Below the pieces are notes generated by a model. It saw nothing but the letters and a program-made list of their open reading frames with translations, had not been told where the DNA came from and did no database searches. Positions 31,208 through 41,072 of a DNA stretch of 64,000 nt are shown here, in pieces; within the stretch, counting starts at the first letter, position 1; the number at the start of each line of letters is the position of its first letter. The translations under genes and the position numbers were made by a program. The DNA comes from Nocardioides coralli (lineage in GTDB: Bacteria > Actinomycetota > Actinomycetes > Propionibacteriales > Nocardioidaceae): assembly GCF_019880385.1 (NCBI RefSeq), contig NZ_CP082273.1, forward strand, positions 620,001-684,000. Reading direction: 5' to 3'.

Positions 31208-32836
31208 TCAGACCAGTCGGTGCTCGTAGGCGTACGCCGTCGCGGCCGTCCGCGAGCCGACGCCGAGCTTGGTGAAGATGTTGGACAGGTGACGGGCGAC
31301 CGTCTTCTCGCTCAGCACCAGCTCGGCGGCGATGTCGGCGTTGCTGCGCCCGCCGGCCACCAGCCGCAGCACCTCGGCCTCGCGGGCGGTCAGGCCGCCG
31401 GGCAGCGCGGCCGGGGCGAGCAGCTCCTCCGCCTGGTCGGCGGCCGGCCGGGCGCCGAGCCGCCGCAGGGTGGTGCGGGCCGTCTCGAGCTCGCGCCGGG
31501 CCGAGGCCTCGTCGCCCGCGGCCAGGAGGGCGCGGCCGGTGACGAGCTGGGTCCGGGCCCGCTGGAAGGCGTCGTCACAGCGCGCCCAGAGCTGCTGGGC
31601 CTTGCGCAGGTAGGGGAGGCCGCCCGCCGGGTCACCGGCGGCGAGCTCGACGGCTCCGGCGGCGTGCGCCGCGGCGGCGAGCAGCCAGTCACAGCCGAAG
31701 CCGGCGGCCACCTCGTCGAGCTCGGCCGTGACCGTCCGGGCCCGGTCGACCTCGCCGGTGCTCAGCAGCACCTCGACGGCGGCGGGCAGCAGCCGTCCCC
31801 GGTGCACGGGGCCGCCGGTCTCCGCGAGCAGCCGCTCCACCGCGGCCCGGGCGACGTCGGTCTGCCCGCGGGCCAGCCACAGCAGCGCGAGGCCCGGCTG
31901 CGGGTCGAAGCCGTGGTCGGCCGCCCGCTGGTAGGCCTCGTCGGCGCCGGTGTGGTCGCCCTGCAGGCGCAGCACCTCGCCCGTCTCGTACGCCGAGAGC
32001 CCGACCGCGTCCGGTGCCCCCACCCGCTGGTAGCGGTCGGCCGCCAGCTCGAACTCGGCGAGCGCGCCGCCGAAGTCACCCCGCAGGCGCAGCAGCTGGC
32101 CGCGGTGCACCGCGCACTGGCCGGTGAAGGCGAGCAGCCCGGGCTGCTTCGCGCACCACCGGTCGAGCGCGGCCGTCCACTCCGCGACCCGGGCGAAGTC
32201 GCTGATCTCCTGGCAGCCCTCGATGGCGGTGCAGTAGACGTGGCCGGCGAGGATCGGCGAGGTCGTCTCACCGGCGATCACCCGGACCATCGCCTCGTCG
32301 AGCCGGGCCAGCCCCTCGGTGAAGCGGCCGGCGTAGAGCGAGAGCCGGCCCTGGGAGCACAGCCCCAGGGCCATCAGGTCAGGGTCGCCGTGCCGGCGGC
32401 CCGCCGCGGTCACCTCGGCGGCGCAGCTGGCGGCGGTCACGAGGTCGCCGGCGCCCAGGGCCCGGAACATGCGAGGGAAGGCGATCCACGCGTGCTCGAC
32501 GGCGTCGGGCGGGAGGCCCTCGAGGAGGCTGTCGGCCCGGGCGGTCCACCCCGCGGCGAGGGCCGGCTCGCCGTGGGTCAGCAGCGTCATCGACAGCCGG
32601 AAGACGCAGCGGACCGCGGCGGTGACGTCACCCGCGGCCTGGGCTCCGGCGAAGGCGCGCTGCAGCACCGCCACCGCCCCGTCGTGGTCGCCGAGCAGCT
32701 CGGCGGTGGTGGCGAGACGGTCGAGGTCGGCGTGCTCGAGCGCATCGTCCGGGACCTCGCCGAAGGCGCTGTGGGCCGCGACCCAGTCGCCGCGGTCGAA
32801 CGCGGCCCGGGCCTGCTCCAGCCCCGTAGCACTCAC
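31208..32836 (-). CDS. LuxR-family regulator with TPR-like sensor region
   Basis: A 542-residue transcription factor without the ATPase of LAL regulators. Residues 1-450 are helical repeats of TPR type ([21 protein letters not shown] onward), and the C-terminal 65 residues a GerE-type helix-turn-helix ([37 protein letters not shown]). It has a paralogue at 45403-47055. The GTG at 32836 has a well-placed GGAGGT site and begins where the family usually begins; an ATG at 32872 overlapping the upstream stop (ATGA) is a possible alternative adding 12 residues. Co-transcribed with the flavin monooxygenase. Confidence 0.85.
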
Positions 32837-32868
32837 GGCGAGCACCTCCGCCCCGAGCCTAAGCCCGT

Positions 32869-33969
32869 TCATGCCGCGGCGGCCCGCGCTGCGGACCGGG
32901 AGGTGCGCCGGACCAGCTGGTCGACGACGTACGCCGCGTCGCGGCCGACGCCGGGAAGCAGCATCGAGCTGAAGGAGTACTGGAAGCTCAGGCCGCAGAA
33001 GTACAGCCCCGGGGCGTCCTCGACGACCCCGCGCCGCTCGGCCGGCCAGCCGTCGTCGCGGAGGACCGGCAGCCGGATCCAGTCGAAGGTCTGGCGGAAG
33101 CCGGTCGCCCAGATCACGGTCCCGACCTCGCGCGGCGTGCCGTCGACGACGGGCAGCCCGTCGGTGACCTCCTCGATCCGGGAGGTGACCCGCTCGACGC
33201 CACGGTCGGCCAGGTCGGAGCGCTTGACCCGCAGCATGGGCCCGCCGTGGTGGCGCACCTGCGGCATCGCCTTGCGGCCCACGGGCGTCCGGCGGGTCAT
33301 CACGTGGCGCCACACGAAGAGCAGCACCGGGAACATCACGTTCATGACCGGGGCGTCCAGGCGCGGCGGGATCTGGCCGCAGTCGCGTCCCGCGAGGATC
33401 GTCGGGTGGTGCTCGGCCACCTCGTAGGCGATGTCGCTGCCGGAGTGGCTGGCGCCGACGACGAGCACGGGGCCGTCGCGGAGCTGGCCGGGGCGGCGGT
33501 ACTCGCTGGAGTGGAGCTGCAGGATCCCCGGGTCGAGCTGGTCGGCGATCGCGGGGACGCTGGGGGCGCGGCCGAAGGTGCCGGTGGCCACGACCACGTT
33601 GTCGCAGGTCCAGGCGCCGTGGTCGGTCGTCACGCGGTAGCCCTCGCCGTCGCGCTCGAGGGCGCTGACCCGGGTGCCGAGCCGGACCGGCAGCTCGAAG
33701 TGCCGCACGTAGGACTCGAGGTAGTCGCCGACGGCGTCCTTGCCGGGGAAGCTGCCGCGGGGTGCGGGGAAGTCGAGGCCGGGCAGGCCGTCGTACTGCG
33801 CCGGGGTGTAGAGCTTCAGGGAGTCCCACTGCCGGCGCCAGTTGTCGCCGACCCGGGCGCTGCCGTCGAGGATCACGAACTCGCGGCCGTGCTGCTGCAG
33901 GTGGTGACCGGTCGCCAGGCCGGCCTGGCCGGCGCCGATCACGACGGTGTCGATGTGTGTGGTGTCCAT
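32869..33969 (-). CDS. Flavin-dependent monooxygenase (FMO/BVMO-like, YUCCA type)
   Basis: A 366-residue enzyme with two Rossmann motifs: FAD-binding [16 protein letters not shown] at residue 9 and NADPH-binding [14 protein letters not shown] near 165, plus a final ATGFRQTF strand (the ATG motif of the family). Substrate is unknown. ATG at 33969 is preceded by TAGCGT at 7 nt and no ribosome site, so it is probably leaderless. The stop overlaps the alternative start of the LuxR gene, and the two form an operon, perhaps one in which the regulator controls its own neighbour. Confidence 0.88.
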
Positions 33970-34075: not shown

Positions 34076-34327
34076 TCAGCGACGGTGCTGGAAGGCGCGG
34101 TCCTCGCGGTTGGTCCCGGCGTAGCCGTTGGGGTCGAAGCCGGGGTACCGGTCGAGGTCGAACTCCGACTCCGCCGGTGCCGGCGTGATCGGGAGCACCT
34201 CGTCGTCGAGCACCACGCTGGCGATCCCGAAGCCGGCCCCGACGGCCAGCAGGGCTCCGGCGAACGCGAGTGCCGTGGCCTTGACGGAGATGTGGTGATG
34301 GCCCGGGTGGGCGGTGGTGATGGTCAT
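34076..34327 (-). CDS. Small membrane-anchored protein, copy A
   Basis: An 83-residue protein beginning MTITTAHPGHHHISVK, a His-rich cytoplasmic start, followed by one hydrophobic helix (ATALAFAGALLAVGAGFGIA) and an acidic outer tail ending in DRAFQHRR. It is paralogous to the 92-residue protein at 38677-38955: the first 35 residues are nearly identical and the tails differ. Function is unknown. Its promoter carries an array of direct heptamers of the SARP type (34387-34426) with a CACAAC box 8 bp away, and a strong terminator follows the gene, so it is a monocistronic unit probably switched on by the BTAD regulator next door. Confidence 0.75.
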   Translation of the reverse strand: MTITTAHPGHHHISVKATALAFAGALLAVGAGFGIASVVLDDEVLPITPAPAESEFDLDRYPGFDPNGYAGTNREDRAFQHRR

Positions 34328-34386
34328 GACGGCTCCCCCTCGATGTGTTGTCCTTCGGTCGTCGTGGTCACCGTTGTGCAGGACAC

Positions 34387-34426
34387 CGGTATCCAGACGG
34401 TCTCGGGCCGGTAACGACCCGGTAAT
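34387..34426 (-). promoter_or_regulatory. SARP-type operator: four direct heptamers, 11-bp period
   Basis: Plus-strand heptamers cggtatc (34387), cggtctc (34398), cggtaac (34409) and cggtaat (34420) are separated by exactly 4 bp each. Read toward copy A on the minus strand, the last heptamer ends 8 bp before CACAAC (34373-34378), the spacing SARP activators need between repeats and -10. The ATG of copy A lies about 45 nt further on. For the divergent regulator gene no such spacing exists. Confidence 0.75.
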
Positions 34427-34479
34427 GGGAGCGACAGGGGGCCATTGACCGCTCCTCGCCGGAGGGCCACTCTCGACAG

Positions 34480-37400
34480 ATGGGCATCGCGGTCTTGGGC
34501 CCGTTGCTGATAGATGGGGGGAAATCCACGCTCGCTCGGCGCGAACGCGTGGTCCTCGCAGCGTTGGCACTGCGGGTCGGGGAGGCGGTCAGCAGCGAGC
34601 AGCTGGCCGAGGCGCTGTGGCGCGACCGGCTCCCCGCGACCTGGCCCAAGGCGCTGCAGACCGCGATCGTCCAGATCCGCAAGACCCTGGGCCCCGGCGC
34701 CGTCGAGACCGTCGGCCACGCCTACCGGCTCGCGCTGCCGAGGGGCGAGGTCGACGCCCGCGAGTTCGAGCGGCTGGTGGCGCGGGCGCGGGAGCTGCTG
34801 ACGCAGGGGGAGCCGGACCGCGCCACCTACCTGCTCGACCAGGCGCTGGCGATGTGGCGCGGTGAGGCGCTCGTCGAGCTCAGCGACTGGGAGCCGGGGC
34901 GGCAGGAGGCCGACCGGCTGGGGGAGCTGCGCCGCGACGCCGAGGAGCTGAGGGTCGACGCAGCGCTGCGCGACGGCCGGCACGGCGACGTCCTCGTCGA
35001 CGCCCGTCGGCTCGTCGAGCAGGCGCCGCTGCGGGAACGTCGCTGGGAGCTGCTCGCGCTCGCCCAGTACCGCTCCGGGCAGCAGGCCGACGCGCTCCGC
35101 ACCCTCCACCAGCTGCGTCGGACGTTGGTGGAGGAGCTCGGCATCGACCCGGGGCCGGACGCGATCGAGCTCGAGACCCGGATCCTGCGGCAGGACCCCG
35201 ACCTCCAGCCGGAGGAGGCGACGCCGACCGCCGCCCGGGCCTGCCCCTACCTCGGTCTGGTGCCCTACGACATCGCCGACAGCGACGCCTTCTTCGGCCG
35301 GGAGAAGGACGTCGCCGCGTGCCGGCGGCGACTGGCCGACACGGGGGTCGTCGCGGTCGTCGGGCCCTCGGGGTCGGGCAAGTCCTCGCTGGTCCGGGCC
35401 GGCGTGGCGGCAGCCCTGCGCGCCGACGGGGAGCGGGTCGTGGTCATCACCCCCGGCCGCCGGCCCCTCGACGCGCTCTCGGCCGTGCCGCGGGACCCCC
35501 GGGTGGTCCTCATCGTCGACCAGGCGGAGGAGGCGGTGATGGCGCCCGACGACCCCGCCCAGGTCGAGCAGTTCTTCGCGGCCCTCACCCTCCACGCCGC
35601 CGGCGGCCGGCTGGTCGTGGCGCTGCGGGCGGACCGCTTCGGCGACCTGGCGGCGTACGCCGTCTTCGCGCGGCTGGTCGAGCAGGGCCTGTTCGTCCTC
35701 ACCCCGATGAGCGGTGACGCACTGCGCGACGCCATCGAGGGCCCCGCCCAGCTGGCCGGGCTGCGTCTCGACGCCGGCCTGGTCGAGCTGCTCGTCGCCG
35801 AGGTCGAGGGCCAGCCGGGCGCGCTGCCCCACCTGTCCCACGCCCTGCGCCAGACGTGGGAGCGGCGCGAGGGCGGGGTGCTGACGATCGACGGCTACCG
35901 GTCCACCGGTGGGATCCGCGACGCCGTCGCCCGGTCGGCCGAGCGGGTCTACGAGGAGCTGTCGAGCGACCAGCGGGTGATGCTGCGCGACGTGATGCTG
36001 CGGCTGGTGTCCCCCGGTCCGGACGGTGAACCGGTCCGCAGCCGGGTGCCCCGGCGGCTGCTGACCGCCGACCCGGAGCACGACCGGATGATGGAGCGGC
36101 TGGTCGCGGCGCGGCTGGTCAGCAGCGACGACGAGGCCGTCGAGCTGGCTCACGAGGCGCTCGCGCGGTCGTGGCCGCGGCTGCAGGGCTGGCTCGACGA
36201 GGACACCGAGGGCCAGCGGATCCTGCGCCACCTGGCGATCGCCGCCGACACCTGGGACTCCATGGGCCGGCCCGACGACGAGCTCTACCGCGGCAACCGG
36301 CTGGCCGCCGCGCTGGAGTGGCGCGACCGCACCGAGCCGGACCTCACGCCGGTGGAGGCCGACTTCCTGGACGCGGGCAGCAGGCGGCACCGGGCCGAGA
36401 AGCGCTCCCTGCTCGAGCAGACCGCCCGGCAGGCCCGCACCAACCGCCGGCTCCGCGCGCTGCTCGGCGTGGCCGCCCTGCTGCTCCTCGTGTCGGCGGT
36501 GACCGGCACGCTGGCCATCGGGCAGGCCAACCGTGCCGCCGACGTGACCCGCACCGCCGACGCCCGCCGGGTCGCTGCGCAGGCCCAGCTCGCCGCCGGC
36601 GTCGACCGGTCGCTGGCGCTCGCTGCGGCGGCGTTCGGTGCGGAGCCGTCCACGGAGTCCCAGGCGGGCCTGCTCGCGGCGCTGACCCGGTTCCCCGAGC
36701 TCGTCGCCGTCAGGCCGGTGCCGGGTGCGTGGTCGGGCTCCAGTCCCGACGGGAGCGTGGCCGCCCTCATGGACTACAACCACCAGGTCAGGTTCCTCGA
36801 CACCGAGACCCTGCGGCAGCTGGGGCAATACGACCCCTACCCGGGCCTCGCGGTCCAGGCGGTCGCCGGCAACGTCTCGCCGCTCGCCTTCAGCGGGAAC
36901 GGGTCGACCATGGCCGTGGGTGTCCTCACCATCGAGGACGAGGTCGTCCGGTTGCTCGACAGCGCGACGTACGCCGAGGCGCGCCGCCAGCCCGGCGGAC
37001 AGCCGCCCTGGGCCTACCCCACGGACGTCCAGCTCAGCTCCGACGGTCGCCAGCTGGCCGTCAGCGTGGGTGTGGTGCAGGGACCACAGCAGGGGGAGAA
37101 CCTGATCTACCTGTGGGACCTGGCGCGACCCGCCCGTCCGAGCCAGGTGATATCGCTGCCCGGCGACACGTTCTTCGTGGCGTTCTCCCCGGACGGCCGC
37201 CGGCTCCACGCATCGCCCGGCTGGAACTCCGACGCGCCCCCCGGCCGGTGGACCTGGTCGACGCGGACGGGCGAGCTCCTCGGGACCTCCCCGGACGGCG
37301 GGCAGGGGTTGTCGATCAATCAGGCCGGCACGCTGCTCGGCTACGCCCAGGGCTCGACGGTGGTGCTGGTCGACGAGGACACCGGCGAGATCGAGGAGCG

Positions 37401-38670
37401 GCTGCGGGGCCCGCAGGGACAGGTGCGACAGGTCGCGTTCTCGCCCGACGGGCGCACGGTCGCGGCGATCGCCGACGACCCGGCGGTCTTCGTGTGGGAG
37501 GTGCTCACCGGGGACCTGCTCGAGGAGATCGTGCTGGAGGACCAGGGGCACGACGTCGGGTTCGACCTCGCCAGCGACCGGCTGCTGGTGCCGAACGGCT
37601 CGCGCCTCGACGTGTTCGGCCTCACCGGCCTCGAGCGCTACGTCGCCCGGGTGCGTCGGGGCACGCCGGGGACGGCGGGGGACTTCCGGGTCACGCGCTA
37701 CGGCTCGCCGTACGAGCCGGTCGTCGCGACCAGCTCCTACGAGCCGGCGCGCGGGGCCTCGGTGCTCGACATCCGGTCGCGCGTCACGGAGCAGCCGGTG
37801 GCCGAGCTGGGCCTGAGCTGGGCGGGCAACACCTTCGAACCGGCGTGGTCCCCGGACAACGAGCACCTCGCGTTCGTCGACTCGCGCGACCGGTTGCGCG
37901 TCTGGAACTGGCGCGAGGAGGAGCTGGTCACCACGCGCACCTTCCGCGCCAGCCAGCTCGCCTACGACGAGGACGGGAGGCGGATCTTCGCCGTCACCCC
38001 CCGCGGGCTCGTCCTGCTCGACGCGCAGGACCTGCTGCCAGTGGGCAGCCCGATCCAGCTGACGAACCGGGTCACCGACGCAGCGCTCGGTGCGGGGGAC
38101 GAGACGGCCGTCCTCATCACCGCGGAGCCCAACAACAGCGCCTTCGGCTACACCGTGACCGACCGGTGGCGGGTCGTCGACCTCGAGACCGGTCAGACGG
38201 TGAGGTCGGGATCGCTCCGGCAGCCCGGCACGGCCCTGGTGCTGTCGCCGGACCGCAGCCGGATGGCCGTCTCCGGTCCGGCGGGGGTCGAGATCGTCGA
38301 CCTCGCCACCGCTGCGTCCACGGTGTCCCAGGACCGCACCGGCGCCGCGGAGGCCGAGGGCCAGCTGCCGACGTTCTCTCCCGACGGTCGGCTCATCGCG
38401 ACCGCCGACGGGATGGGCAGCGTCAGCCTCTGGGACGGTCGCACCGCCGAGCTGCTCGGGACCGTGCAGCCGGGAGACTCGCAGGTGCAGCCGTTGTTCC
38501 TCGACGCCGACACGCTGTTCCTGCAGTACAGCGACGGCGCGGCCTACATCTGGCGGACCAGCCCCGAGCACGCGCTTCGCACGGCCTGCCGCATCCTCGA
38601 CGGCGGGCTCGACCCCACCGAGTGGCAGGAGTGGTTCGGCGAGCGGCCCTACGTCGACGTGTGTGCGTGA
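34480..38670 (+). CDS. Transmembrane SARP-type regulator: BTAD, STAND NTPase, WD40
   Basis: A 1,396-residue protein. Residues 1-100 are an OmpR-like DNA-binding domain (VVLAALALRVGEAVSSEQLA, KALQTAIVQIRKTLG) and about 100-245 the bacterial transcriptional activator (BTAD) helices. Residues about 250-640 are a STAND NTPase: YLGLVPYD, FFGRE, Walker A GPSGSGKSSLVRAG and Walker B VVLIVDQAEE. A hydrophobic helix (LRALLGVAALLLLVSAVTG) follows at about 660-680, and then WD40-type repeats to the end (FSPDGRTVAAIADDPAVFVW and others). The helix would put the propeller outside the membrane as sensor while BTAD stays with DNA. It lies between the two small genes whose promoters carry the heptamer arrays and is the obvious candidate for binding them. 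Confidence 0.88.
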   Translation: MGIAVLGPLLIDGGKSTLARRERVVLAALALRVGEAVSSEQLAEALWRDRLPATWPKALQTAIVQIRKTLGPGAVETVGHAYRLALPRGEVDAREFERLVARARELLTQGEPDRATYLLDQALAMWRGEALVELSDWEPGRQEADRLGELRRDAEELRVDAALRDGRHGDVLVDARRLVEQAPLRERRWELLALAQYRSGQQADALRTLHQLRRTLVEELGIDPGPDAIELETRILRQDPDLQPEEATPTAARACPYLGLVPYDIADSDAFFGREKDVAACRRRLADTGVVAVVGPSGSGKSSLVRAGVAAALRADGERVVVITPGRRPLDALSAVPRDPRVVLIVDQAEEAVMAPDDPAQVEQFFAALTLHAAGGRLVVALRADRFGDLAAYAVFARLVEQGLFVLTPMSGDALRDAIEGPAQLAGLRLDAGLVELLVAEVEGQPGALPHLSHALRQTWERREGGVLTIDGYRSTGGIRDAVARSAERVYEELSSDQRVMLRDVMLRLVSPGPDGEPVRSRVPRRLLTADPEHDRMMERLVAARLVSSDDEAVELAHEALARSWPRLQGWLDEDTEGQRILRHLAIAADTWDSMGRPDDELYRGNRLAAALEWRDRTEPDLTPVEADFLDAGSRRHRAEKRSLLEQTARQARTNRRLRALLGVAALLLLVSAVTGTLAIGQANRAADVTRTADARRVAAQAQLAAGVDRSLALAAAAFGAEPSTESQAGLLAALTRFPELVAVRPVPGAWSGSSPDGSVAALMDYNHQVRFLDTETLRQLGQYDPYPGLAVQAVAGNVSPLAFSGNGSTMAVGVLTIEDEVVRLLDSATYAEARRQPGGQPPWAYPTDVQLSSDGRQLAVSVGVVQGPQQGENLIYLWDLARPARPSQVISLPGDTFFVAFSPDGRRLHASPGWNSDAPPGRWTWSTRTGELLGTSPDGGQGLSINQAGTLLGYAQGSTVVLVDEDTGEIEERLRGPQGQVRQVAFSPDGRTVAAIADDPAVFVWEVLTGDLLEEIVLEDQGHDVGFDLASDRLLVPNGSRLDVFGLTGLERYVARVRRGTPGTAGDFRVTRYGSPYEPVVATSSYEPARGASVLDIRSRVTEQPVAELGLSWAGNTFEPAWSPDNEHLAFVDSRDRLRVWNWREEELVTTRTFRASQLAYDEDGRRIFAVTPRGLVLLDAQDLLPVGSPIQLTNRVTDAALGAGDETAVLITAEPNNSAFGYTVTDRWRVVDLETGQTVRSGSLRQPGTALVLSPDRSRMAVSGPAGVEIVDLATAASTVSQDRTGAAEAEGQLPTFSPDGRLIATADGMGSVSLWDGRTAELLGTVQPGDSQVQPLFLDADTLFLQYSDGAAYIWRTSPEHALRTACRILDGGLDPTEWQEWFGERPYVDVCA

Positions 38671-38676
38671 GGCGCG

Positions 38677-38955
38677 TCAGCCCCGGTCGGTGGTCCCCGG
38701 TCGCATCCACGAGTCGCGGACGCCGTTCTCGGTGCCCGGGACGGAGTTGCGGTTGCCGCGACGGTCCCAGGAGTCCCAGGCGCCGCCGGTGTTCACGACC
38801 TTCGCGGGCTGCCGGCCCGGGGAGGTGACGTCGTCGCCGGTCAGCGCGGCGATCCCGAAGCCGGCCCCGACGGTCAGCAGGGCCCCTCCCATGGCGAGCG
38901 CGGCGCTCTTGACGGAGATGTGATGGTGTCCCGGGTGGGCGGTGGTGATGGTCAT
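38677..38955 (-). CDS. Small membrane-anchored protein, copy B
   Basis: A 92-residue paralogue of copy A: MTITTAHPGHHHISVK, hydrophobic helix SAALAMGGALLTVGAGFGIAA, then a polar tail with WDSWDRRGNRNSVPG that is unrelated to that of copy A. The coding start, the 5' leader and the whole operator are also duplicated, so the copies arose by duplication of the gene with its promoter and then diverged in the extracytoplasmic tail. It ends 6 bp from the stop of the regulator, tail to tail. Function is unknown. Confidence 0.75.
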   Translation of the reverse strand: MTITTAHPGHHHISVKSAALAMGGALLTVGAGFGIAALTGDDVTSPGRQPAKVVNTGGAWDSWDRRGNRNSVPGTENGVRDSWMRPGTTDRG

Positions 38956-39013
38956 GACGGCTCCCCCTCGTGTCGTGTCTGCAGTCGTCAGTGGCCACCG
39001 TTGTGCCGCACGT

Positions 39014-39064
39014 CGGTATCCACCCGGTCTCGGAGCGGTAACGGGGCGGTAATGGGGCGGTCAG
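39014..39064 (-). promoter_or_regulatory. SARP-type operator: five direct heptamers, 11-bp period
   Basis: Heptamers cggtatc (39014), cggtctc (39025), cggtaac (39036), cggtaat (39047) and cggtcag (39058) with 4-bp spacers. The same four heptamers in the same order precede copy A. On the minus strand the array ends 8 bp before CACAAC (39000-39005), about 45 nt upstream of the copy B start. Confidence 0.75.
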
Positions 39065-39095: not shown

Positions 39096-39383
39096 TCAGG
39101 GGCCGTGGGTGCGGGCGCGCTCGGCGATGCGCTCGAGGAACGCGCGGGGGCCACCACGTTCCGGATCGCCCAGGTAGTAGGACCCCTTGTGCCACAGCAC
39201 GCTCTCGAGCGCCTCGTCAGAGGGCGCCCCGGCAAGGACGTGATCGACCTCCTTCCGCAGCTGCTCCGCCAGCTCGGGGTCGGCCTGCAGGAAGGCGTCT
39301 ATCTGCTGCTGCTCCGTGCCTTCGTGTCGCCAGTCGGGGTGGAAGTAGGCGCCGAGCAGGTTCTCCAGGAGTGGGGTGTCCAC
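39096..39383 (-). CDS. CdiI-type immunity protein
   Basis: A 95-residue acidic helical protein matching the contact-dependent inhibition immunity (CdiI_2-like) pattern: LLENLLGAYFHPDW at the start, a central LRKEVDHVLAG helix, then KGSYYLGDPERGGPRAFLERI. It should bind and neutralise the RNase A-like toxin encoded directly upstream on the same strand. The GTG at 39383 has an AGGGAG site and begins 2 bp after the toxin stop, guaranteeing co-expression. Confidence 0.85.
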   Translation of the reverse strand: MDTPLLENLLGAYFHPDWRHEGTEQQQIDAFLQADPELAEQLRKEVDHVLAGAPSDEALESVLWHKGSYYLGDPERGGPRAFLERIAERARTHGP

Positions 39384-39384
39384 G

Positions 39385-40773
39385 TCATCTCCCTACCGGG
39401 TGGGGGAATCCGGTCACAACCCGGAATCCGTCGGGCATTCCGGCATCCTTGCGCAGAATCACGCGGAGTCCGGTGGGGAACTCGGGTCCAGCGGGTCCCA
39501 CGCTGATCCCGACAGGGCGACCGAGGTCATGGCTGACGAGAAGGTTGCGCCCTCCGCCGCCGGACATCCAGTCGTCGACCTTCTGCGCGTTGCCGCGAAG
39601 GGCGGCGGCGACGAAGGTCTCTGCCTCGTCCTGATTGCGGAAGGACGACGCGTAGGGCAACCCCTCGGCGGCGCGACGTTGCGCGAGCTGAGCCTCGCTC
39701 TGGCCCACGTGCTTGCTGATCGTGTGACCCCCACCGCGCTCGTGGGCCCGGAGCCAGCCGCGGCGCCAGCGGGCAGGGCCGAGGACGAGGTGGCCCGCCT
39801 CGGTGCGGGTGGGCAGGCCGAGGAAGCGGTCGAGCCGCGCCCGCTGGGTGGCGACCGAGGCACGGGTGGCACGGACCGAGGCCGCGATCGCCGACGTGGT
39901 CGACCGCAGCGACGCCAGCACGGCGAGGAAGCGGGGCGACTGCTTCGCGACGCGCGCGGCGATGGCGCCCAGACCCACCGCCGCTCCGGCGCCGGCGGTG
40001 ACGGCCGCGAGGGCGGCGCCGATCACGACCCCCTCGACGACGAGCCGGAGCACCTCGTGCACCAGCGCCAGGACCTCGGCGCGACGAACCTCGACCGCGT
40101 CGGCGTACGCCTCGCACTTCACGCCGAGCCCGAAGCAGGAGTCCGCCAGCTCGTCGACGGTCGCGCGCAGGTCGCTCGCCGCGTCGACGGCCAGCGGGAT
40201 CTCGGGGGAGCGCTGGGACTCGAGCGTGGTGGCAGCCACCCCGGCGAACCCGGCGGCGTCGCGGAGCGACCCGCCGATGCGGCGCCACACGGCCGACGCC
40301 GCGCGGAGTGCGGCGACGTCGGCGTCGGGCCACACGAAGCCCTCGAGGTGGTCGAGGACCCAGGCCTGCTGTGGCGTCAGCGCTGGCAGGTCACCGCCCA
40401 GCGAGGTCGGCAGCGTCGTCGGGAGCACCGCTCGGTCGGCGTCGTCGGCCACCGGCGCACACGGCTCGACGACTACCGAGCCGCCGACCAGCGAGCGTGC
40501 CTCGGCCCGTCGGTGGTTGTCGGCCGACTCCCGGGTCAGCCGCCCGAGGGTCGCGAAGGCGGTCACGGCGTCCCGGACGCCGGCGAGCAGCTCGTCCGCT
40601 GCTCCGTCGTACGCCGCCGCGAACTCGGTGCCGGAGGCGTCGTCACCCGCCATCCCGGCCAGCGGGGCGAGTCCGGTCACGAGGAGATCGTGGGCCTCGG
40701 CGACCGCGTGGTTGCCGGTGCGGAACGCGTCCGCCGCGGCGACGTAGCTGCCGGCCTCGACGTCGAGGATCAT
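39385..40773 (-). CDS. Polymorphic toxin with C-terminal RNase A-like (CdiA-CT) domain
   Basis: A 462-residue protein. The first 330 residues are helical with a WXG100/LXG-type N-terminus (YVAAADAFRTGNHAVAEAHD) and a hydrophobic stretch (GVVIGAALAAVTAGAGAAVG) that may help translocation. The last 120 are the bacterial RNase A-like toxin: AHERGGGHTISKHVG with the expected catalytic His, a middle SSFRNQDEAETFVAAALRGN and an ending RVILRKDAGMP...FRVVTGFPHP. It should cleave RNA in rival cells after type VII secretion. ATG at 40773 overlaps the upstream WXG100 stop (ATGA). The secretion machine is not in this window. Confidence 0.85.
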   Translation of the reverse strand: MILDVEAGSYVAAADAFRTGNHAVAEAHDLLVTGLAPLAGMAGDDASGTEFAAAYDGAADELLAGVRDAVTAFATLGRLTRESADNHRRAEARSLVGGSVVVEPCAPVADDADRAVLPTTLPTSLGGDLPALTPQQAWVLDHLEGFVWPDADVAALRAASAVWRRIGGSLRDAAGFAGVAATTLESQRSPEIPLAVDAASDLRATVDELADSCFGLGVKCEAYADAVEVRRAEVLALVHEVLRLVVEGVVIGAALAAVTAGAGAAVGLGAIAARVAKQSPRFLAVLASLRSTTSAIAASVRATRASVATQRARLDRFLGLPTRTEAGHLVLGPARWRRGWLRAHERGGGHTISKHVGQSEAQLAQRRAAEGLPYASSFRNQDEAETFVAAALRGNAQKVDDWMSGGGGRNLLVSHDLGRPVGISVGPAGPEFPTGLRVILRKDAGMPDGFRVVTGFPHPVGR

Positions 40774-41072
40774 CCGACCTGCCGCCACATCGCGAGGTTC
40801 GTCTCCCCGGCCGTCGCGTAGTTGCGGCGGGCGGTCCCGGCGGCGCCGGCCATCGCCGCGAGCGCCGTGCGCATCTGCGCGAAGCCGTGGTCCCACCTCG
40901 CCTGCGCGACGAGGTGCGCCGCGGCCGCGGCGCCCTCCCAGTCGTCGTGCAGCCGCGCGACCCGGGCGCCGAGGCGGTCGGCCAGCGCGACCAGCCGGGC
41001 ATGGTCACGTTCCAGCTGCGCGACCACGTCGGCGAGGTGGTCGAGGTCGACGCGGAACCGCTCGGGGGTCAT
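40770..41072 (-). CDS. WXG100 family protein (second)
   Basis: Exactly 100 residues, two helices joined by the DWEGAAAAA turn (W-x-G motif) typical of Esx proteins secreted by type VII systems. It probably pairs with the preceding WXG100 protein and carries the toxin to the secretion machine. ATG and TGA overlaps (4 bp each) tie it to both neighbours. Confidence 0.82.
   Translation of the reverse strand: MTPERFRVDLDHLADVVAQLERDHARLVALADRLGARVARLHDDWEGAAAAAHLVAQARWDHGFAQMRTALAAMAGAAGTARRNYATAGETNLAMWRQVG

Follow-up and report, generated by a model that had tools for sequence, protein, structure and literature searches.

What do two arrays of short direct repeats accomplish when they flank the gene for one large regulator, and toward which of the neighboring genes do they face? 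This question is raised by a 64,000-nucleotide stretch of the Nocardioides coralli genome (assembly GCF_019880385.1, contig NZ_CP082273.1, positions 620,001 to 684,000 of the forward strand), hereafter called the window and numbered from its first base. A gene for a regulator of the SARP (Streptomyces antibiotic regulatory protein) family lies there between two arrays of CGGT-type heptamers, A and B, each with a small gene on its left. An initial annotation had proposed that this regulator binds both arrays and activates both small genes, and this core proposal is very likely right on sequence grounds. The best explanation as a whole, which we hold with reasonably good confidence, is that a membrane-anchored SARP uses the arrays to control small exported proteins and also itself. 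From the geometry, conservation, and co-occurrence of the elements and from the domains of the regulator we infer binding, activation, topology, and a signal. The elements involved are listed below, with distances in nucleotides (nt).

34076..34327, minus strand: small gene 1, 83 amino acids, with a hydrophobic segment near the N-terminus
34373..34378, minus strand: CACAAC, -10-like element of small gene 1, 8 nt from array A (GTTGTG on the plus strand)
34387..34426, plus strand: array A, with CGGTATC, CGGTCTC, CGGTAAC, and CGGTAAT at 34387, 34398, 34409, and 34420; predicted operator between small gene 1 and the regulator gene, with phasing conserved in relatives
34431..34437, plus strand: degenerate fifth slot of array A, 14 nt before TTGACC
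34445..34450, plus strand: TTGACC, -35-like element of the regulator gene
34468..34473, plus strand: CACTCT, -10-like element of the regulator gene, 6 nt before its ATG
34480..38670, plus strand: regulator, 1396 amino acids, with a winged helix and BTAD (residues 91-236), nSTAND1 (256-599), a transmembrane helix, and a double WD40 propeller
36463..36519, plus strand: codons of the predicted transmembrane helix, residues 662-680
38677..38955, minus strand: small gene 2, 92 amino acids, a diverged copy 59% identical to small gene 1
39000..39005, minus strand: CACAAC, -10-like element of small gene 2, 8 nt from array B (GTTGTG on the plus strand)
39014..39064, plus strand: array B, a satellite with CGGTATC, CGGTCTC, CGGTAAC, CGGTAAT, and CGGTCAG at 39014, 39025, 39036, 39047, and 39058; TTGAC is absent on its right

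All nine heptamers and their 4-bp spacers are present exactly where the initial annotation had placed them, and the 8-nt gap that it had noticed between the first heptamer and the minus-strand CACAAC is exact at both arrays. The heptamers read CGGT on the plus strand, which is the coding strand of the regulator, and both small genes lie on the minus strand. The starts of the two small genes and the regions upstream of them are diverged copies of each other (123 nt at 88% and 79 nt at 78% identity). Between arrays A and B, heptamers 1 to 4 are identical at 28 of 28 positions, whereas the spacers agree at only 8 of 16 (Fisher p = 7e-5). Heptamers that were kept while the spacers drifted bear the mark of selection. 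Furthermore, the next recognizable gene to the right of array B lies on the minus strand, yet the heptamers have been retained.

The regulator opens with the arrangement typical of SARPs, an N-terminal OmpR-type winged helix followed by a BTAD (BTAD E 1e-35, Trans_reg_C above its cut-off), and its residues 1-245 match AfsR (8hvr, E 5e-31) and EmbR (E 1e-23). The NB-ARC domain and tetratricopeptide repeats (TPRs) of an AfsR-type C-terminus are replaced by nSTAND1 and WD40, and the protein scores 135 bits against the NCBIfam AfsR equivalog, whose cut-off is 1430. The predicted membrane helix is indicated by hydropathy and flanking charge. A hydrophobic stretch near residue 660 (632 in L154; numbers of this kind denote individual loci) recurs by hydropathy in 43 of the 43 regulators longer than 900 amino acids, flanked by 15 residues of net charge +2 to +7 on its N-terminal side and by a net charge of -3 to +2 on the other. 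According to the positive-inside rule, the positively charged flank of a membrane helix marks the cytoplasmic side. These flank charges therefore place the propeller probably outside the membrane and the SARP and nSTAND1 portions inside. An outer location for the sensor is suggested by this charge balance and by two invariant C-terminal cysteines in 42 aligned regulators. An AlphaFold2 model of residues 640-1396 contains one long helix followed by WD40-type strands (pLDDT 85.8, pTM 0.83). Foldseek matches it to double-propeller proteins such as AIP1 and Apaf-1 at E below 1e-21 and TM-scores of about 0.25-0.35, a combination indicating that the propellers match and the overall arrangement does not.

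Conservation was assessed in two sets of relatives. With the whole regulator as query, 215 genomes of the genus yielded at least 40 places in 26 genomes at E <= 1e-60, although copies may have been missed, since two candidates per genome were scored. Of these places, 34 were used, and the other 6 (including L061-L064) had matches that fell short of the N-terminus. A scan of named genomes gave 80 loci: 16 family members (2 dropped as duplicates), 9 outgroup members, the uncounted L120, and 54 left unused with matches short of the N-terminus. The closest came from Nocardioides, Kribbella, Phycicoccus, Knoellia, Agromyces, Demequina, and uncultured relatives. The resulting 48 nonduplicate loci that include an N-terminus (the genus search supplied 34 and the named scan 14, L080 from Nocardioides among the latter) are related, and 42 survive a 60% ungapped identity filter.

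Within 170 nt upstream of these 48 regulators, heptamers with at least 6 of 7 matches to CGGTATC occur 118 times, compared with 11.5 in shuffled sequences. The distances between heptamers are multiples of 11 in 98 of 120 pairs (shuffle mean 0.15, maximum 2), and at least one such pair is found at 37 of 48 loci (shuffle 0.1). The heptamer in inverted orientation is found 13 times, a count close to what shuffling gives for the direct one. Thus, the 11-bp periodicity, whose loss from orthologous promoters would have told against the initial annotation, has been retained. Repeats of about 7 bp with an 11- or 22-bp period are accordingly present, conserved, and tied to this regulator at the level of sequence. 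Two CGTAT-type repeats, perhaps another heptamer, lie 11 bp apart upstream of the more distant regulators at L088 and L089.

The left-hand side of the array was examined by aligning loci on the first heptamer, an anchor assigned by hand. This was done for 44 of the 48 loci, and L050, L068, L154, and L156, which have no anchored array, were dropped. Conservation around the array peaks at two bases upstream of the first heptamer, a C at 16 nt (40 of 44) and a T at 10 nt (33 of 44). On the minus strand, these correspond to a hexamer with A as its second base and G two bases past its end, located 8 nt from the heptamer, which fits a weak -10 element. The 8-bp distance noted in the window therefore recurs in relatives. 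It is also the distance described for SARP promoters, where repeats are 11 or 22 bp apart with the 3' repeat 8 bp from the -10 element, and where the afsS promoter has the weak -10 CACTGT, according to the relevant portions of PMC10936776.

A hydrophobic divergent open reading frame (ORF) accompanies 40 of the 44 loci with an anchored array and 0 of the 4 without (p = 4e-4). Because hydrophobicity entered the score by which the ORF was picked, 40 may be too high; L074, scored as lacking one, has a lipoprotein-like ORF. The 40 chosen ORFs vary between loci, with 33 of 63-140 amino acids and 7 longer (190-470 amino acids). Signal peptides, lipoboxes, and membrane segments were judged by eye and by hydropathy, and the divergent gene in most relatives apparently encodes a short, variable, exported protein. 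Homologues of the small proteins at E <= 0.01 number 3 beyond the two of the window, among 10 candidates scored, and there are weak matches in 4 other genomes of the genus (E 8e-5 to 9e-4). A hairpin in the small-gene leaders was considered and dropped, as the mean z was -0.65, with 15 of 44 loci below -1 and the window at +0.96.

On the right-hand side, the array faces a promoter that the initial annotation had overlooked, as it had the membrane anchor and the conservation across families. Of the 47 loci with TTGAC, 39 have it 35 or 36 nt ahead of the start codon. In 33 of the 47, the hexamer that stops 6 nt short of that codon carries A in its second and T in its sixth position, so that the regulator promoter is apparently leaderless. 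The heptamers are in register with this promoter: 102 of 116 are at 14 + 11k nt before TTGAC, 11 are one base off, and 3 are elsewhere. The first heptamer is 47 nt from TTGAC in most of the 44 anchored loci and 58 nt in the window, L043, L052, L059, and L150, and at L040 (upstream of 1501) the array reaches 91 nt before TTGAC with its 11-bp phase intact. Occupancy of the slots across the 44 loci is 40 for the first, only 5 (the window among them) for that 11 nt further on, 42 for that at +22, 39 for slot 25, and 35 for slot 14. In the window, slot 14 has decayed to GCGACAG. The genome of the window also has, at L150 (2685672), a second family regulator with its own array, TTGAC, and divergent ORF, and cross-regulation between it and the window regulator is possible.

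Could the array then serve the regulator promoter alone, its 8-bp distance from the small gene being a by-product of a compact intergenic region? The fixed phase to TTGAC speaks for such purely autoregulatory use. So does the strand: relative to PimR of Streptomyces natalensis, whose CGGCAAG repeats are on the coding strand of its target pimM in the available part of the source, CGG is on the target strand for the regulator promoter and not for the small genes, so by this comparison, which covers few SARPs, the array faces the regulator. In addition, L071 has kept three heptamers with no divergent ORF under the criteria applied (upstream, on the same strand, another regulator of this kind ends), and the array of L155 has no exported divergent ORF. 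Given the phase to the -35 element and the array of L071, autoregulation is at least as well supported as action on the small genes. However, other arrays have lost the opposite partner. Array B, the second array of L056, and the array of L047 have a small gene on the left and no TTGAC on the right. That arrays persist whichever partner is gone favors use in both directions. Among the 42 downstream regions searched for second arrays, L152 has a further array with no ORF found beside it, and the downstream array of L051 is that of the following regulator. The 8-bp geometry and the satellites beside small genes provide a counterweight to the reading of the strand, and both the -10-like bases conserved at 8 nt and the heptamers shared by A and B despite drifted spacers would be unexpected if only the regulator promoter mattered. 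Purely autoregulatory use is thus unlikely. For the initial annotation, the SARP domain, the phasing, the recurring 8-bp distance, and the retention of array B support action on both small genes; its account was incomplete in that array A is also phased to the -35 element of the regulator.

An alternative of low probability is that the bound regulator represses its own TTGAC promoter, the small gene, or both. The regulator promoter has a good -35 element and an acceptable -10 element and would need no activator, but the array overlaps neither TTGAC nor either of the -10-like elements. Moreover, the small gene is without an evident -35 element, and its spacing is that of SARP-activated promoters as far as the source describes them.

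Less probable still is that the arrays are bound by another winged-helix regulator that recognizes 11-bp direct repeats, such as PhoP or a different SARP. There is precedent in the overlap of PhoP and AfsR sites at the afsS promoter, reported in the portion of PMC10972967 consulted. Against this stands the company that the operator keeps. When 215 genomes are searched with an operator pattern alone, blind to proteins, 26 places in 19 of them match (0 for the reversed control), and at 23 of the 26 a family regulator begins 34-38 nt beyond TTGAC. This pattern encodes the commonest spacing, and the arrays of the window do not match it. Likewise, the CGGTATC pair is missing from 9 of 9 more distant BTAD relatives (L084-L091 and L093).

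Simple tandem repeats are a real background in this genus. The bare pattern of four CGGT at 11-bp intervals occurs in 68 of 215 genomes, and 11-bp CGGT minisatellites (L004-L032) are found in many genomes of the genus, the forward pattern being far commoner than its reversed control. Of 29 bare-pattern loci inspected outside the genome of the window, a subset of all matches, 27 have neighboring spacers more than 50% identical, as minisatellites do, and 0 of 29 have a BTAD match within about 1.5 kb on either side. The pattern search was therefore rejected as proof by itself; such counts prove little, and the argument depends on position and conservation. In the 3.53-Mb genome of the window, (CGGT N7)x3 CGGT matches arrays A and B only (three overlapping matches; reversed control 0). 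Allowing no more than one mismatch, pairs of GGTATC 11 bp apart are found at 4 places, each of them within A, B, or the paralogue locus at 2685602-2685629, and two mismatches add 51 for a total of 55 (reversed control 18). At 22 bp, 4 places with one mismatch all fall within A, B, or the paralogue array, and two mismatches add 9 (control 2). That the arrays are functionless minisatellites copied once with the small gene is scarcely credible, because, although such repeats are common in the genus and neighboring spacers in array B are 0.63 identical, those in array A are 0.33 identical, the heptamers but not the spacers are conserved between A and B, and the phase to promoter elements is conserved in relatives.

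Several further observations, beyond the heptamer strand, weigh against control of both the small genes and the regulator through these arrays. No 11k heptamer pair is present at the threshold used in 11 of 48 loci, and 9 of 44 anchored loci are one or two bases short of 47 + 11k (46, 56, or 57). The heptamers of the window have drifted from the family consensus, and CACAAC is a poor -10 element that is missing T at both ends. Three of the 26 operator matches (L197, L201, and L205) are without a BTAD match, of which L201 is the satellite array of G043. Finally, the recognition helix offers a mixed picture. Residue 65, equivalent to AfsR R92 by a manual alignment count, is Q in the window regulator only, among 48, where it goes with the drifted heptamers, and L081 and L083 pair a different recognition helix with CGGTATG. 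L045 and L075 combine CGGTAAC with an ordinary recognition helix, which leaves covariation of helix and site no more than suggestive.

If the SARP does control both the small exported proteins and itself, its SARP protomers would bind the heptamers side by side, one each, on one face of the helix. Leftward, the bound regulator, placed 8 bp from a weak -10 element, would substitute for the -35 element that the small gene lacks and activate transcription. Rightward, it would sit just upstream of the -35 element of its own, apparently leaderless promoter and tune its own expression. Array B would be a satellite operator copied with the small gene across the regulator, having kept the leftward function alone. 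The anchored regulator would likely couple a cue from the envelope or the outside to the making of small exported proteins.

The two halves of the regulator differ in conservation. Among 861 pairs of regulators, the N-terminal halves are at least 35% identical throughout, the C-terminal halves are only 15-35% identical in 751 pairs, and a separate group of 51 pairs has C-terminal halves at 50-70%. In 60 pairs, an N-terminal identity of at least 65% is combined with a C-terminal identity of at most 33%. When pairs are traced along the sequence, identity falls sharply at about residue 680-720, behind the membrane helix. The C-terminal half thus looks modular, as if ectodomains had been swapped between conserved cytoplasmic halves. 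A ligand-receptor pairing of small proteins with ectodomains was tried and is unsupported: within-family residual distance was as low in 1291 of 2000 permutations, with families defined by single linkage that are probably over-merged. Two ectodomain types accompany small-protein family F1, which was assigned by eye, and a lack of one-to-one correspondence speaks against a simple ligand-receptor pair.

A broader proposal, which we advance tentatively and consider somewhat less than an even bet, is a class of membrane-tethered SARPs in which a conserved cytoplasmic SARP-nSTAND1-membrane half carries discrete, swapped WD40 ectodomains and acts through one 11-bp-phased operator on interchangeable small exported proteins that can be copied with the operator as satellites. 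Searches of open-licence PMC papers listed none whose title or abstract describes a class of BTAD or SARP proteins with WD40. If the proposal is true, the class would be a portable sensor-to-export switch of actinobacteria. SARPs are known mainly from Streptomyces antibiotic clusters, whereas here a SARP half, an NTPase, a membrane helix, and a propeller make up one protein. The conserved phasing predicts the binding site of the regulator base by base. Operator, regulator, and target adjoin, and other genomes can be screened for such systems with the operator pattern.

Other genes lie close by. Directly upstream of array B, at 39096-40896 on the minus strand, a gene whose product has WXG100-like and bacterial RNase A (CdiA-CT) domains is followed by a CdiI_2-type immunity gene, and the two are likely a toxin-immunity pair. 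At 31208-33829, also on the minus strand, an 873-residue ORF with TPRs and a C-terminal LuxR-type helix-turn-helix overlaps an opposite-strand ORF of 1601 residues that has no Pfam match.

Known systems share parts of this arrangement, as far as the portions of the literature at hand describe them. PimR, of the SARP-LAL type, is likewise a large SARP with divergent genes (pimM-pimR) and a shared intergenic operator, made of three CGGCAAG heptamers with 4-bp spacers outside the -35 element. Its target is a PAS-LuxR activator, its C-terminal half is LAL-type rather than nSTAND1-WD40, its operator lies well away from either promoter (at 93 and 58 nt from the start sites), and PimR is reported not to control its own gene. 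At the oxy promoters of Streptomyces rimosus, OtcR resembles the present case in a repeat beginning with CGGTC, an 11-bp period, and a 3' repeat 8 bp from the -10 element. It differs in being a small SARP with antibiotic-cluster targets and the repeat CGGTCGAAG (so written in oxyI). AfsR and afsS of Streptomyces coelicolor also combine a SARP bearing a STAND-type NTPase with an adjacent small-protein target, 11-bp direct repeats, and a weak -10 element. In the material at hand, AfsR has TPRs, neither WD40 nor a membrane helix is described for it, and its heptamer is of the CGTTCATCG type, unlike the CGGTATC type here. Also unlike afsS, the operator here faces the promoter of the regulator as well, and the small proteins are apparently exported.

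Activators of the ToxR/CadC type have an N-terminal winged helix, one membrane helix, and a sensor domain behind it. The regulators described here resemble them in a single predicted transmembrane helix between DNA-binding and sensor domains (43 of 43, by hydropathy). Unlike in ToxR and CadC, a BTAD and an NTPase would separate the DNA-binding domain from the membrane, and the sensor role would fall, given the predicted topology, to a double WD40 propeller.

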